A stretch of DNA of 64,000 bases from Parabacteroides sp. PH5-46 (GTDB taxonomy: Bacteria; Bacteroidota; Bacteroidia; Bacteroidales; Tannerellaceae): NCBI RefSeq assembly GCF_029892785.1, contig NZ_JARXXA010000010.1, forward strand, positions 62,001 to 126,000, written 5' to 3'. The translations under genes and the position numbers were made by a program. The stretch's first letter is position 1. Each line of letters opens with the position of its first letter. This document shows, piece after piece, positions 17,491-49,620 of the stretch. The notes under the pieces are model-generated. The model saw only the letters and a list, made by a program, of their open reading frames with translations. It searched no databases and was not told where the DNA came from.

Positions 17491-17731
17491 GATACAAAAT
17501 ATGACATATTTCCACTTTTTGTGTATATTTTTTCATTTTTTAAATCATTATAGGCGATTCTATACAATATTTAAGGCGTTTATCGAAACAATTATGCAAT
17601 ATCTCAGGGAAACATTTGCTCTTTCCGGTCAAATAGAAAAAGGGTTTTATTTACCCTTTACAGCAATTTAATTACTTTTATCCTACATTTTTCACTAAAA
17701 CCTTCAGTTTTTCCATATCATATTATTCTGT

Positions 17732-17836
17732 TGAGAAAAAAATTTCATGCCGATAAGAAAAAATTCTCATGCGGGTGAGAAAAAATTCTCAACGGCATGA
17801 GAATTTTTTCTCATCCAGATGAAACTTTTAGTTTCA
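17732..17836. repeat. Dyad array 2: four 16-bp dyads plus a fifth, 22-bp period
   Basis: Dyads start at 17732, 17754, 17776 and 17798: TGAGAAAAAAATTTCA, TAAGAAAAAATTCTCA, TGAGAAAAAATTCTCA and TGAGAATTTTTTCTCA. A fifth 17-bp palindrome, TGAAACT-TTT-AGTTTCA, starts at 17820. The spacing is exactly 22 throughout. Dyad 4 is the exact reverse complement of dyad 3. The 6-bp spacers are more G+C rich than the dyads. The array lies 51 bp past the metY stop and could also act as its terminator, though no long U-tract follows a strong stem. Confidence 0.9.
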
Positions 17837-17887
17837 CTACAAAAAAAGAATAAAACTTTTGCGTGAAAAAGTATGCAAATAGCTTAT

Positions 17888-28666: not shown

Positions 28667-31600
28667 ATGAAACACTATTTGATTCTTCTTTCACTTTTAC
28701 TCTTTTGGGGGCTGAAAACATCTGCTCAGGAAAGACTAAACCCCGTACCCTTCAATGAGGTTACACTAAACGACCCGTTCTGGCGGCCAAGGCTTGTAAA
28801 ACAAAAGGAAGTACTGGTTCCCTTTGCCCTGGACAAAGCCAAACCGGCAGTTGAAAACCTGAGGAAAACGGCCAACTACCTGAAGGGAATCAAGGACGAC
28901 CTACCTTTCCCCCACCGCTACATCTCTTCTGATTTATACAAGGTTATGGAGGGAGCCGCTTACCTGTTGAAGCTGGAGCGAGACCCCGCTCTGGAAAAAC
29001 AGATGGACGACATCATAGATATCATCGCCGGTGCCCAACAAAAAGACGGATACAACTACGAATCACATATTACCGGCGTATCCGCTCAGCGGGTCGACGA
29101 GATGGGGCACACTCCTTACTCGTACGTGGTACATAGCCATGAATTATACAACATGGGGCACATGTACGAAGGTGCCATTGCCTATTACCAGGCTACGGGG
29201 AAAGATAAATGGCTGAAGCTTGCCGAAGCAAATGCCTGCCATATCAACCGGGTATTCTTTGAAGGCGATCCGGCTTACAATAACGGCAAACCGGTAAACC
29301 AGGCGCCCGGCCATCAGGAGATAGAGCTGGCATTGGTAAAGCTATACAAGGTAACAGGAGATACCCTGTATCTTAATATGGCCAAGCGCTTTATTGATAT
29401 CCGTGGCGTTACCTACAGACCCGAAGGGAATGGCACCATGTCTCCCGAATACGCCCAACAGCATTTGCCTGTCCGCAAGCAGACCAAAGCCGTAGGGCAT
29501 GCCGTACGTGCCGCTTACCTTTATTCCGGTATGGCAGACGTCAGCGCTTATACGAACGACTTGTCATTACGTCCTGCGCTGGACAGCATCTGGCATAATA
29601 TAGTAGATACGCGGATGCACATCACCGGCGGATTAGGAGCTGTTCATGGCATAGAGGGATTCGGTCCCGAGTATGAGTTGCCGAACAAGGACACGTATGA
29701 CGAAACCTGCGCTTCGGTAGGAAATGTGTTGTTTAATCACCGGATGTTCCTGATGGAGAAAGACGGAAAATACATGGACGTAGCGGAAGTTGCCTTGCTC
29801 AATAATGTGTTGGCAGGTGTGAACCTGGAAGGCAACCGTTTCTTCTATGTAAACCCGTTGGAGACAGATGGAATCAGAGCCTTTAATCATGGGCTGAAAG
29901 GACGTTCGCCTTGGTTTGAGACGGCTTGTTGCCCTTCCAACCTGGCACGCCTGATTCCCCAGGTGCCCGGCCTGATGTACGCAACAACGAAGAGTGAAAT
30001 TTACTGCTCCTTTTATGCCGGCAGTCAAACGACCTTACAGTTAGACAACGGCTCCGTTGAGCTAAAGCAGCAGACCGAATATCCATTTGGCGAGAAGGTG
30101 GTGTATGAAGTATCGCCGGAAAAAGAAAACCAGGTGTTTAGCTTAATGCTCAGGATACCTACCTGGATTGGAAAGCAGTTTGTCCCCGGAGCATTATATA
30201 ATTACACAGACGCTCAAGCTTCCGGATGGAGCGTTAAGCTAAACGGGAAGAAAATAAAGGCAGAAGTGATCAAAGGCTTTGCTACCGTTCATCGTGCCTG
30301 GAAAAAGGGAGACGTTGTAGAGCTATCCTTACCGATGCCTGTCCGCTTCTCTACTGCTATCGACCAGGTAAAAGCCGACAGGGGACGGGTATGCATCACC
30401 CGTGGCCCGCTCGTGTATTGCGCCGAAGGCATTGATAATGCAGAGATACTGGATAATGTCTTTATCCCCAGTTTATCGGTAAAGGTTCAGACCGGGTTAC
30501 ATACTGATTCTACTCTTAAGGGGATTCCGTGGATTAACCTTCCTGCCAAAGAAAAACAGATGAATGGTGATAAAGATCACACACTTACTCTCCTCCCCTA
30601 CTTCGCATGGAATAACCGGGGAGATGGCAGCATGATGGTTTGGTTCCCCAGAGCCGGAAAAAATTACACCAATAACCGCTACCCTCTGATCACTAAAGCC
30701 TATACAGAGCTGCCTATCGGAACAATAAAACCTGCCGGATGGATGGAAGAGCAGATGAAGCGGATGGCATCGGGCATGACAGGTCACATGGATACCATTT
30801 ACGAAAAAGTGATGGGTGCAAGGAACGGTTGGCTGGGTGGCGACGGCGATGTATGGGAACGCGGTCCTTACTGGATTGACGGGCTTCTTCCGTTGGCGTA
30901 TATACTGAATGATAAAGCCTTGATTGAGAAGACACAGCCTTGGATTGAATGGGCTTTGGCATCACAAAAGACAAACGGCTATTTCGGACCCGACACGGAT
31001 CGTCCGTATGAGCAAGGGCTTCAACGCGATAACGCGCAGGATTGGTGGCCAAAGATGGTAATGCTGAAGATCATGCAACAGTATTATTCTGCCACCGGAG
31101 ACCAGCGGGTGATCTCCTTTCTGACCAATTATTTCAAGTATCAGCTGGAACAGCTTCCGCAGAACCCGCTGGGCAAATGGACGTTCTGGGGAGAACGCCG
31201 GGGTGGCGACAATCTGATGGTGGTTTACTGGCTATACAACATAACGGGAGATAAATTCTTGCTGGAACTGGGAGAACTGATTCATCGGCAAACGTTCAAC
31301 TGGACAGACGTCTTCCTGAATCGCGATCACTTGTCAAGGCAGCACAGCCTGCATTGTGTGAATCTGGCACAAGGCTTCAAGGAACCTGTTATTTACTATC
31401 AGCAGAGCCATGATCGCCAACATATACAAGCTGTCAAGAAAGCAGTAAAAGATATGCGTAAGACCATTGCCTTTCCTATCGGGCTGTGGGCTGGTGACGA
31501 ACTACTGCGCTTTGCCGACCCGATACAGGGCTCGGAACTCTGCACGGCTGTAGAAATGATGTTCTCACTCGAAAAAATGCTGGAGATTACCGGTGATGTA

Positions 31601-32614
31601 CAATGGGCAGACCATCTGGAGCGAATTGCCTACAATGCCTTGCCTACGCAGATCAGCGACGATTTCTCCGGGCGTCAGTATTATCAGCAAATCAATCAGG
31701 TAGAGGTGTCCTGCAAGCATCGGAATTTCGTAACACCTCATGATGATACCGACAACCTGTTCGGCACTCTCACCGGATATCCCTGCTGTACCTCCAACTT
31801 GCACCAGGGATGGCCAAAGCTGGTGCAGCACCTTTGGTTTGCTTCTGCCGACAATGGATTGGCAGCTTTGGTTTATGCCCCGTCTGCGGTTACGGCTCAG
31901 GTAGCAGGAGGCACCTCTGTTACTATCGCGGAAGAAACGGCTTATCCGTTTGACGAGCAAATCCGTTTCCGCTTTACGTATGCCGACAAGAAAGTGAAAA
32001 GTGCTTTCTTCCCCTTCCATTTCCGTATCCCTTCTTGGTGCTCCCAGCCGGTAGTACGCCTCAACGGAACGCCGCTTGAGATAGATACTCATGCCGGAGG
32101 CATTGCACAGATCAGCCGGGAGTGGAAAAACAATGATGTCCTGACCTTGGAATTACCTATGGACGTAGCTGTCAGCTATTGGTACGACGGAGCCGCCGTA
32201 GTAGAGCGAGGCCCAATCGTCTATGCTCTGAAAATGAATGAAAAGTGGGAAAAGAAAACGGTCGAGGCAGAGAAGAAAAACCAATATGGCGAATGGTACT
32301 ACGAGGTAACGTCTGATAGTCCGTGGAACTATGCCTTTAAGAGTGCTAATCTAAAGCCAGAGGTAATAGGAAACAACTTTGTTGTAGAAAAAGCAGCTTC
32401 GGTAGCCACCTATCCCTGGACCCTGCAAGATGCTCCCGTAACCATTAAAACAAAGGCCCGCAGAATGCCCCGCTGGCAACTGTACAGCGGCTCAGTAGGT
32501 ACCATCCCATACTTTACCCAGCAAGGAGAAATACTGGGAGAAGAAGAAACCATCGAATTAATACCCTATGGCTGTACAACGCTCCGCCTAACGGAATTCC
32601 CTGTGAGAAACTAA
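28667..32614 (+). CDS. Tandem GH127-GH127 beta-L-arabinofuranosidase fusion
   Basis: This 1315-residue secreted protein has a signal peptide (to about residue 20) and two complete DUF1680/GH127-type (alpha/alpha)6-barrel enzymes in one chain: about 25-655 and 668-1315. In characterised GH127, Glu and three Cys hold zinc and one Cys is the nucleophile. The first copy has Glu346, Cys348 and Cys421-Cys422; the second has Glu957, Cys959 and Cys1040-Cys1041, so both sites look intact. The halves are only distantly similar, which suggests different substrates. Single-domain GH127 proteins are about 650 residues. It is the last gene of the operon, followed by a terminator. Confidence 0.9.
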   Translation: MKHYLILLSLLLFWGLKTSAQERLNPVPFNEVTLNDPFWRPRLVKQKEVLVPFALDKAKPAVENLRKTANYLKGIKDDLPFPHRYISSDLYKVMEGAAYLLKLERDPALEKQMDDIIDIIAGAQQKDGYNYESHITGVSAQRVDEMGHTPYSYVVHSHELYNMGHMYEGAIAYYQATGKDKWLKLAEANACHINRVFFEGDPAYNNGKPVNQAPGHQEIELALVKLYKVTGDTLYLNMAKRFIDIRGVTYRPEGNGTMSPEYAQQHLPVRKQTKAVGHAVRAAYLYSGMADVSAYTNDLSLRPALDSIWHNIVDTRMHITGGLGAVHGIEGFGPEYELPNKDTYDETCASVGNVLFNHRMFLMEKDGKYMDVAEVALLNNVLAGVNLEGNRFFYVNPLETDGIRAFNHGLKGRSPWFETACCPSNLARLIPQVPGLMYATTKSEIYCSFYAGSQTTLQLDNGSVELKQQTEYPFGEKVVYEVSPEKENQVFSLMLRIPTWIGKQFVPGALYNYTDAQASGWSVKLNGKKIKAEVIKGFATVHRAWKKGDVVELSLPMPVRFSTAIDQVKADRGRVCITRGPLVYCAEGIDNAEILDNVFIPSLSVKVQTGLHTDSTLKGIPWINLPAKEKQMNGDKDHTLTLLPYFAWNNRGDGSMMVWFPRAGKNYTNNRYPLITKAYTELPIGTIKPAGWMEEQMKRMASGMTGHMDTIYEKVMGARNGWLGGDGDVWERGPYWIDGLLPLAYILNDKALIEKTQPWIEWALASQKTNGYFGPDTDRPYEQGLQRDNAQDWWPKMVMLKIMQQYYSATGDQRVISFLTNYFKYQLEQLPQNPLGKWTFWGERRGGDNLMVVYWLYNITGDKFLLELGELIHRQTFNWTDVFLNRDHLSRQHSLHCVNLAQGFKEPVIYYQQSHDRQHIQAVKKAVKDMRKTIAFPIGLWAGDELLRFADPIQGSELCTAVEMMFSLEKMLEITGDVQWADHLERIAYNALPTQISDDFSGRQYYQQINQVEVSCKHRNFVTPHDDTDNLFGTLTGYPCCTSNLHQGWPKLVQHLWFASADNGLAALVYAPSAVTAQVAGGTSVTIAEETAYPFDEQIRFRFTYADKKVKSAFFPFHFRIPSWCSQPVVRLNGTPLEIDTHAGGIAQISREWKNNDVLTLELPMDVAVSYWYDGAAVVERGPIVYALKMNEKWEKKTVEAEKKNQYGEWYYEVTSDSPWNYAFKSANLKPEVIGNNFVVEKAASVATYPWTLQDAPVTIKTKARRMPRWQLYSGSVGTIPYFTQQGEILGEEETIELIPYGCTTLRLTEFPVRN

Positions 32615-32654
32615 ATATTTGATGGCTGTTTCATAATAAATAGATGCTTAGTTT

Positions 32655-32686
32655 GCCCGGAATGTTACGTCATTTCGGGCATTTTT
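32655..32686 (+). terminator. Terminator after the GH127 gene
   Basis: GCCCGGAATG (32655-32664) pairs with CATTTCGGGC (32671-32680) with one mismatch and a 6-nt loop. ATTTTTATT follows. Confidence 0.9.
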
Positions 32687-32700
32687 ATTCCAGCAAATTG

Positions 32701-32788
32701 TTGGCTGACAGCTGTCGGCCAATTGACCGACAATTATCGACCAGTTGGCTGACGGCCGTCGGTCAACTGGTCGATAATTATCAGCCAA
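32701..32788. repeat. Dyad array 3: four 22-bp dyads, eight 11-bp half sites
   Basis: Units start at 32701, 32723, 32745 and 32767. Each is a dyad over its full 22 bp, so the array reads as eight 11-bp half sites in alternating orientation with consensus YTGRYYGAYRR, for example TTGGCTGACAG and (complement) CTGGTCGATAA. Inner 16-mers start at 32704, 32726, 32748 and 32770. The array begins 15 bp after the terminator and ends 57 bp before the -7 box of the next gene. A long reading frame crosses it, but that is incidental. Confidence 0.92.
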
Positions 32789-32844
32789 CAAAAATATCGG
32801 CAATAAAATTCAATATCCATATGCTTTTTACTGCGTTTTTAGTC

Positions 32845-32852
32845 TATCTTTG
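32845..32852 (+). promoter_or_regulatory. -7 box immediately before the PAS-LuxR gene
   Basis: TATCTTTG ends only 4 bp before the ATG at 32857. With the usual distance from -7 box to transcript start, the mRNA would begin at or just after the ATG, so it would be leaderless. Confidence 0.6.
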
Positions 32853-32856
32853 CTGC

Positions 32857-33621
32857 ATGATTTCCAATAACATAACACCTAAAGAACTTTGGTCAAGACA
32901 GCAGATTAGCAGTCTTGATATTGACTATGATTTGTGGAATAAGAAGCGGGAATCGATACGGAGTTTCTCTCAAATGACTCAAAGCTGCATCTTTACTGTT
33001 GATGTATTCAAAGCGAGATATGACTTTGCTTCTGACAATTTCTCTACTCTTTTTGGGTATAATCCTACATGGATAAGAACGATACGAAAGCATGGCGATG
33101 TCTTGGAAGACAGAATACATCCGGATGATCGCTCTCTGTTGTTGGAATACCAAATTGAGCATGGGAAGTTTATCTATTCGCTTCCACAGGAAGAAAGGAA
33201 CGATTACCGGCAGATGTTTCAATACCGGATACGGAATGCTAAAGGGCAATATGTAAATGTGATCAGCCGTCAGCAGGTTCTTGAAAAGGATAGGAACGGC
33301 AAGGCATGGATTATTATGGGAATAATGGATATCTCTCCTGACCAGATAGTTACAGAAAAAATCAAACGGACGGTCATTAACAGTAAAACGGGCGAAATAC
33401 TTGCACCGACATTCATTCCGGCAGAGAAACAACTAACCAAGCGGGAAAAAGAAATACTGTTATTAATTCGTCAGGGTTTTCTAAGTAAAGAGATTGCAAA
33501 TAAATTGAATATCAGCATTTATACGGTAAGCAATCACCGAAAGAATATATTGACCAAACTGGAGGTTGACAATGTAATGGAGGCTATCAATACTGCCCGG
33601 GATTTGGGCATCACCTATTAA
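32857..33621 (+). CDS. PAS-LuxR family transcriptional regulator
   Basis: This 254-residue protein has an N-terminal PAS-like sensor domain (about 30-165; IFTVDVFKARYDFASDNFSTLFGY, ending GIMDISPDQ) and a C-terminal LuxR/GerE helix-turn-helix (about 190-254; LTKREKEILLLIRQGFLSKEIANKLNISIYTVSNHRKNILTKL). There is no membrane segment. I chose ATG 32857 because the upstream in-frame extension covers array 3 and the promoter. The signal is unknown. The last 4 bp overlap the convergent nucleotidyltransferase gene. Confidence 0.88.
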   Translation: MISNNITPKELWSRQQISSLDIDYDLWNKKRESIRSFSQMTQSCIFTVDVFKARYDFASDNFSTLFGYNPTWIRTIRKHGDVLEDRIHPDDRSLLLEYQIEHGKFIYSLPQEERNDYRQMFQYRIRNAKGQYVNVISRQQVLEKDRNGKAWIIMGIMDISPDQIVTEKIKRTVINSKTGEILAPTFIPAEKQLTKREKEILLLIRQGFLSKEIANKLNISIYTVSNHRKNILTKLEVDNVMEAINTARDLGITY

Positions 33622-49466: not shown

Positions 49467-49511
49467 ACATTCGTAGTATATAGAAAAACAGCAGATTAGA
49501 ACAAGATAAAA

Positions 49512-49593
49512 AACGCATGCATGCGTTTTGCAGATCGCATGCATGCGTTTTCAAAATTGCACCCATGCGTTTTATTAATCGCACGGGTGCAAT
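49512..49593. repeat. Dyad array 4: four 16-bp dyads at 22-bp period
   Basis: Dyads start at 49512, 49534, 49556 and 49578: AACGCATGCATGCGTT (perfect), ATCGCATGCATGCGTT, ATTGCACCCATGCGTT and ATCGCACGGGTGCAAT. The 6-bp spacers are TTGCAG, TTCAAA and TTATTA, with T-rich sequence after the last. The array is between convergent genes, 46 bp after one stop codon and 28 bp from the other. Apart from it, the 154-bp gap holds nothing I can identify. Confidence 0.93.
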
Positions 49594-49620
49594 TTTTACT
49601 TCATACAAAATCCTGTTATT

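Follow-up and report, generated by a model that had tools for sequence, protein, structure and literature searches.

The locus and its array

The window, as the whole 64-kb stretch of DNA analysed here is called, carries an array of short palindromes at 32701–32788, between a GH127 gene and a PAS-LuxR gene. The former spans 28667–32614 and encodes a 1315-aa protein with two stretches of GH127 catalytic domain, possibly a fusion of two beta-L-arabinofuranosidases. Two neighbouring features lie outside the element, a terminator-like hairpin 3' of the GH127 gene (32654–32681, + strand) and the Bacteroidetes-type -7 box of the LuxR gene, TATCTTTG (32845–32852, + strand). This box precedes the ATG of the PAS-LuxR gene (32857–33621, + strand), which encodes 254 aa with PAS_3 and GerE (LuxR) domains, and is kept in most LuxR orthologues of the named genomes. 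A first-pass annotation had placed the array between a terminator and the LuxR promoter, and this order holds. The PAS-LuxR protein is 83–88% identical to proteins of other Bacteroidales genera, while its best match in 18 congeners reaches 39%; judged by these identities, the gene was likely acquired horizontally.

All eight 11-bp blocks of the array fit the half site YTGRYYGAYRR, strictly alternating between + and - orientation with zero spacer, exactly as first described. Each of the four 22-bp units has an internal dyad axis, and the junctions between units are dyad axes as well. The units, like the flanks and the other arrays below, are given without strand, and consist of TTGGCTGACAG and CTGTCGGCCAA (unit 1, 32701–32722), TTGACCGACAA and TTATCGACCAG (unit 2, 32723–32744), TTGGCTGACGG and CCGTCGGTCAA (unit 3, 32745–32766), and CTGGTCGATAA and TTATCAGCCAA (unit 4, 32767–32788). 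The array attains a dyad score of 56 out of 64, whereas 40 dinucleotide-type shuffles of the window reach 51 at most at any position. Differences between its units are exclusively transitions, which bears out the earlier statement that they are almost all of this kind. The left flank of the element (32684–32700, TTTATTCCAGCAAATTG) is partially complementary to the right flank (32789–32806, CAAAAATATCGGCAATAA), and flanks resembling the left one are found at other copies of the same family, termed F3. The reverse complement of the right flank fits the left flank of other F3 copies, for example L010; judged by its flanks, the window copy therefore runs in the opposite orientation to those.

Copies and families in the genome

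With the array as query, the same 4.42-Mb genome yields approximately 14 distinct F3 copies at 75–84% identity, spread over many contigs, of which 13 were aligned. In their half sites TTG and GA (and TC and CAA) are nearly fixed, and the intervening positions vary almost solely within purines or within pyrimidines. The window contains two further arrays built on the 22-bp plan. Array 1, of family F1, lies at 17729–17843 and is made of TGAGAANNNNTTCTCA units with 6-bp spacers, and array 2, of family F2, lies at 49503–49602 and is made of CGCATGCATGCG-type units. F1 and F2 have ~20 copies each in this genome. Copies of F2 and of a fourth family, F4, have conserved flanks that reach past the array; at the F2 array of the window these flanks are conserved, imperfect inverted repeats, and the total length of the F2 element is perhaps ~150 bp. 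BLAST found no match to F3 in plasmids and phages, and a search of viral contigs with one exact core pattern of F4 returned none.

Arrays were also sought de novo with a sequence-independent scan for four consecutive dyads, covering 800 kb of the genome and the 64-kb window (864 kb sampled). Dyad scoring had to tolerate exchanges within purines and within pyrimidines, as strict Watson-Crick scoring with high thresholds missed most arrays. Set to a period of 22 bp and a threshold of 50, the scan returned 22 arrays from the 800 kb plus 2 from the window; the remaining periods between 16 and 32 yielded 0–2 each, shuffled sequence ~1, and a period of 33, the half-unit harmonic, 6. Lowering the threshold to 46 gave 37 calls in the 864 kb, of which ~34 look real, with the remainder lying inside genes and matching no family. 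Sorted by eye, the arrays make up nine or more sequence families with unrelated cores and a common plan of approximately four 22-bp units. Extrapolation would put the number of arrays near 170 per genome, and in these gut bacteria they would therefore shape a good many of the regions between genes.

The dyads of another family, F6 (G000:C1:361504, C2:333225, C2:365442 and others), contain GAACAYRTGTTC, which resembles the Gram-positive LexA box, probably by coincidence. In F1, the four bases between TGAGAA and TTCTCA form a loop, and loop types occur in reverse-complement pairs (TTTT/AAAA 24/8, CTTT/AAAG 11/2, TCTT/AAGA 4/2, and also TAAA/TTTA). Across the family these non-palindromic loops are thus present in both orientations while the spacers hold a single orientation. 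Flipping DNA hairpins formed by the dyads would yield such pairs, as would a dimer able to read the loop both ways. In plastid DNA, hairpins are known to give rise to small inversions between inverted repeats (PMC6387583). Complementarity of the F1 loops over the whole element was also considered and set aside, as by eye the loop types of unit 1 and unit 3 look independent.

Genomic context and turnover

The real arrays are intergenic, although ~93% of the genome is coding; gene calls and array contexts rest on a simple ORF caller. F1 and F2 arrays are enriched in convergent (3'-3') gaps (13/27 vs. a background of 29/194, p 2e-4). F3 and F4 arrays prefer upstream (5') regions, and the ratio of convergent to divergent gaps is 13:3 for F1/F2 vs. 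1:12 for F3/F4 (p about 1e-4). This placement bias suggests a function, or a choice of sites, beyond plain dispersal. Four F3 arrays (L006, L010, L012, L018) are situated between a divergent pair of promoter boxes, outside both predicted transcripts. A fixed spacing between array and promoter was rejected, since the distance from array to -7 box at F3 copies varies widely, from 56 to 131 bp. No common function was found among the genes next to arrays.

Orthologous loci indicate that arrays are gained or lost. The Sir2-FKBP gene pair has an F4 array in this genome and none in congener G015, where the matching sequences are 81 bp apart vs. 255 bp here; in congener G010 the pair is separated by other sequence without an array. 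Similarly, an F1 array neighbours asd here and is missing in G010, G014, and G015. As congeners are empty at these two gene pairs and LuxR orthologues lack the array, arrays appear to come and go, untied to genes, although their absence in congeners could be loss. The flanks of F3 and F4 copies show no copy-specific direct repeat of the kind left by target-site duplication, and the empty sites have diverged too far to give precise junctions. No case of recent insertion inside a single species was found, and F3 copies are old (75–84% identity). The same IS3-family remnant abuts two F3 arrays, ~11 bp from the edge of each (L016:2776-3027, L017:2758-3099).

Arrays in related genomes

A search of 80 relatives found F3-like matches in one congener and in five other genomes of the same family, and none in 32 other families of the order. 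The genomes with matches contain palindromic arrays of differing cores. Two further genera that were sampled (G028 and G041) have array families of their own, again with a period of 22 bp, and the array sequences of different genera are completely unlike. No arrays were detected in four other families at a threshold of 48 (~282 kb sampled).

With one of its own arrays as query, G041 proved to hold at least 40 copies of that array family, the best of which are 92–95% identical. Among 30 copies read (L299–L328), the core measures 68 bp in 16 and 89–90 bp in 13, which indicates that length changes in whole 22-bp steps, by one unit more or less. The outer 11-bp block of this family, ATATCCTTTAT, occurs in either orientation and on either side, in all four combinations, and inverted ends are present.

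Alternative readings

The transitions had initially been proposed to keep pairing in RNA, a reading in which the array would be a structured RNA (leader, sRNA or 3' UTR hairpin) maintained by pairing. Folded as RNA, the + strand of the window array does give a strong predicted structure (-58.5 kcal/mol, z -9.3), and transitions dominate the minor alleles of F3 (175 vs. 11, or 175/186 = 94%), a share that stands at 40% in F1, 48% in F2, 65% in F4, and 58–65% in the coding background of an orthologous gene. However, across the 13 F3 copies the long hairpin covaries no more than shuffles do (0.238 vs. 0.242); for the unit dyads the excess over shuffles is weak. In substance no excess of pairing-preserving changes is found. 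Mismatches of the G-T and A-C types occur in nearly equal numbers (99 vs. 79; 75 vs. 57), so neither strand is favoured, and Rfam returned no family at gathering score, its weak matches being unrelated hairpin models far under the cut-offs. The window array also follows the terminator and precedes the predicted LuxR promoter, and several copies sit between divergent promoters. Lack of covariation over shuffles, balanced mismatches, and these divergent sites together make an RNA role highly improbable, and the first two of these favour an interpretation of the purine/pyrimidine pattern as a constraint on the DNA itself, in which near-fixed TTG and GA would be combined with flexible pyrimidine or purine positions. 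The position directly upstream of the LuxR promoter, which had been taken as a hint of protein binding there, would suit an operator of the PAS-LuxR gene. This reading fails on the ~14 dispersed copies that adjoin unrelated genes, and on the LuxR orthologues of the named genomes, which are 83–88% identical to the window protein and have no array upstream at any of 21 loci (one with just 92 bases upstream). In substance no orthologue has the array, and it is most improbable that it serves as the operator of this gene.

A broader alternative is that the arrays are architectural or regulatory, with a nucleoid protein or transcription factor binding four phased dimers and dispersal being secondary. 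Sites between promoters (F3, F4) or gene ends (F1, F2) would then act as insulators, supercoil sinks or operators. Helical phasing at 22 bp in all families, fixed contact-like bases with variation limited to purine or pyrimidine exchanges, the mostly upstream and partly divergent placement of F3, and the convergent enrichment of F1/F2 are all consistent with this. Conversely, the variable distance to the -7 box, the lack of shared function among neighbours, the orthologous gene pairs without arrays, and the complete sequence difference between genera speak against it, and it is considered unlikely, while remaining well ahead of the other alternatives. Among these is a REP/BIME/REPIN identity, with a RAYT (Y1) transposase as the moving agent. 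The arrays are intergenic, high in copy number, hairpin-forming, and alternating, as this would require, and the genome has three Y1_Tnp genes; one F2 array (L109:1205-1293) lies near a Y1_Tnp gene with its own GGCGGCGCCAGCCCC inverted ends. However, the two of the three Y1_Tnp genes that were inspected have different inverted repeats, the 13 aligned F3 copies have no GTAG/GTGG-type foot at their ends, with a half site of YTGRYYGAYRR, and the array-bearing G041, G028, and G039 have no match to Y1_Tnp (PF01797). Because these genomes, G041 with its 40 or more copies among them, hold arrays without such a gene, a REP-type Y1 transposase is excluded as the general agent, and on gene content the RAYT reading appears largely refuted and has very little probability left.

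Proposed nature of the element

The element is ~90–130 bp long, non-coding, and intergenic. It usually comprises four palindromes of 22 bp, spaced by two turns of the helix, and its flanks are partly inverted. It occurs in many copies and in many unrelated families of one geometry, is gained or lost at orthologous sites, and in a relative changes length by whole units. The preferred reading, with a probability of roughly 0.6, is that the window array is one F3 copy of a REPIN/MITE-like, non-autonomous, dispersed DNA element with phased protein-binding dyads, spread by a putative protein. Each palindrome would be the site of a protein dimer, and with a spacing of 22 bp all dimers would sit on the same side of the double helix. 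A putative protein, or a protein family of changing specificity, may copy or move the element as RAYTs do for REPINs, and selection against insertion in genes would leave the copies between them. The element would act as DNA and not as a transcript. No parent IS, transposase or autonomous partner was found on examination of Y1_Tnp and of the IS3 remnant beside two copies.

That families without shared sequence all follow one strict 22-bp dyad plan implies that something in common recognises them physically. Once found, this recogniser could define either a new system that mobilises non-autonomous elements in Bacteroidales or a new protein that organises the chromosome or regulates genes. Tentatively, and at somewhat less than even odds, the arrays may constitute a superfamily of dispersed DNA elements new to bacteria and defined by geometry rather than by sequence, namely three or four palindromes repeating every 22 bp exactly, with many unrelated families per genome, each presumably having its own putative binding or mobilising protein of one kind, independent of RAYTs. 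Individual arrays could be misread as operators or RNA leaders.

Comparison with known systems

Multi-family arrays of 22-bp dyads were not found described in the open-access literature, to which the search was confined, so their novelty is provisional. Iterons share the ~22-bp spacing, which sets bound proteins on one face of the DNA, however they repeat directly and belong to a single replication origin, whereas the arrays are dispersed palindromes. Fremin and Bhatt (2021) reported palindromic elements of 80–132 bp in Bacteroidetes, mostly predicted terminators (PMC8040213). These are likewise palindromic and were put forward as structured-RNA candidates, but the part of that report considered here describes no 22-bp multi-dyad architecture, which by description sets them apart.

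The arrays also resemble MITEs such as BrickBuilt of Porphyromonas gingivalis, which is non-coding, strictly intergenic, and present in ~20 copies with inverted ends (PMC4596501). The likeness covers the non-coding and intergenic character and the comparable copy number (~20). As for inverted ends, F2 and the G041 family have them, while F3 flanks are only partly complementary. BrickBuilt is built from 23-nt tandem direct repeats with a leader, a tail, and IS5-like ends (PMC4596501), and was rejected as an identity for the arrays, which consist of 22-bp palindromes in alternating half sites.

REP, BIME, and REPIN elements are short intergenic palindromic units of alternating orientation and high copy number, capable of forming hairpins and ~100 bp in size (PMC2817692, PMC8049555). 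The arrays share the intergenic location, high copy number, hairpin capacity, and alternating palindromic units, and resemble BIMEs in the regular spacing of these units. IS elements insert next to REPs (PMC1525189), and an IS3-type remnant adjoins F3 arrays twice here. Nonetheless, the sequence of the array unit bears no relation to the REP consensuses given in PMC2817692, and a REPIN is a REP doublet with a RAYT, whereas the arrays usually have four dyads at an exact 22-bp period. Unlike REPs and REPINs, they also form many unrelated families within one genome.
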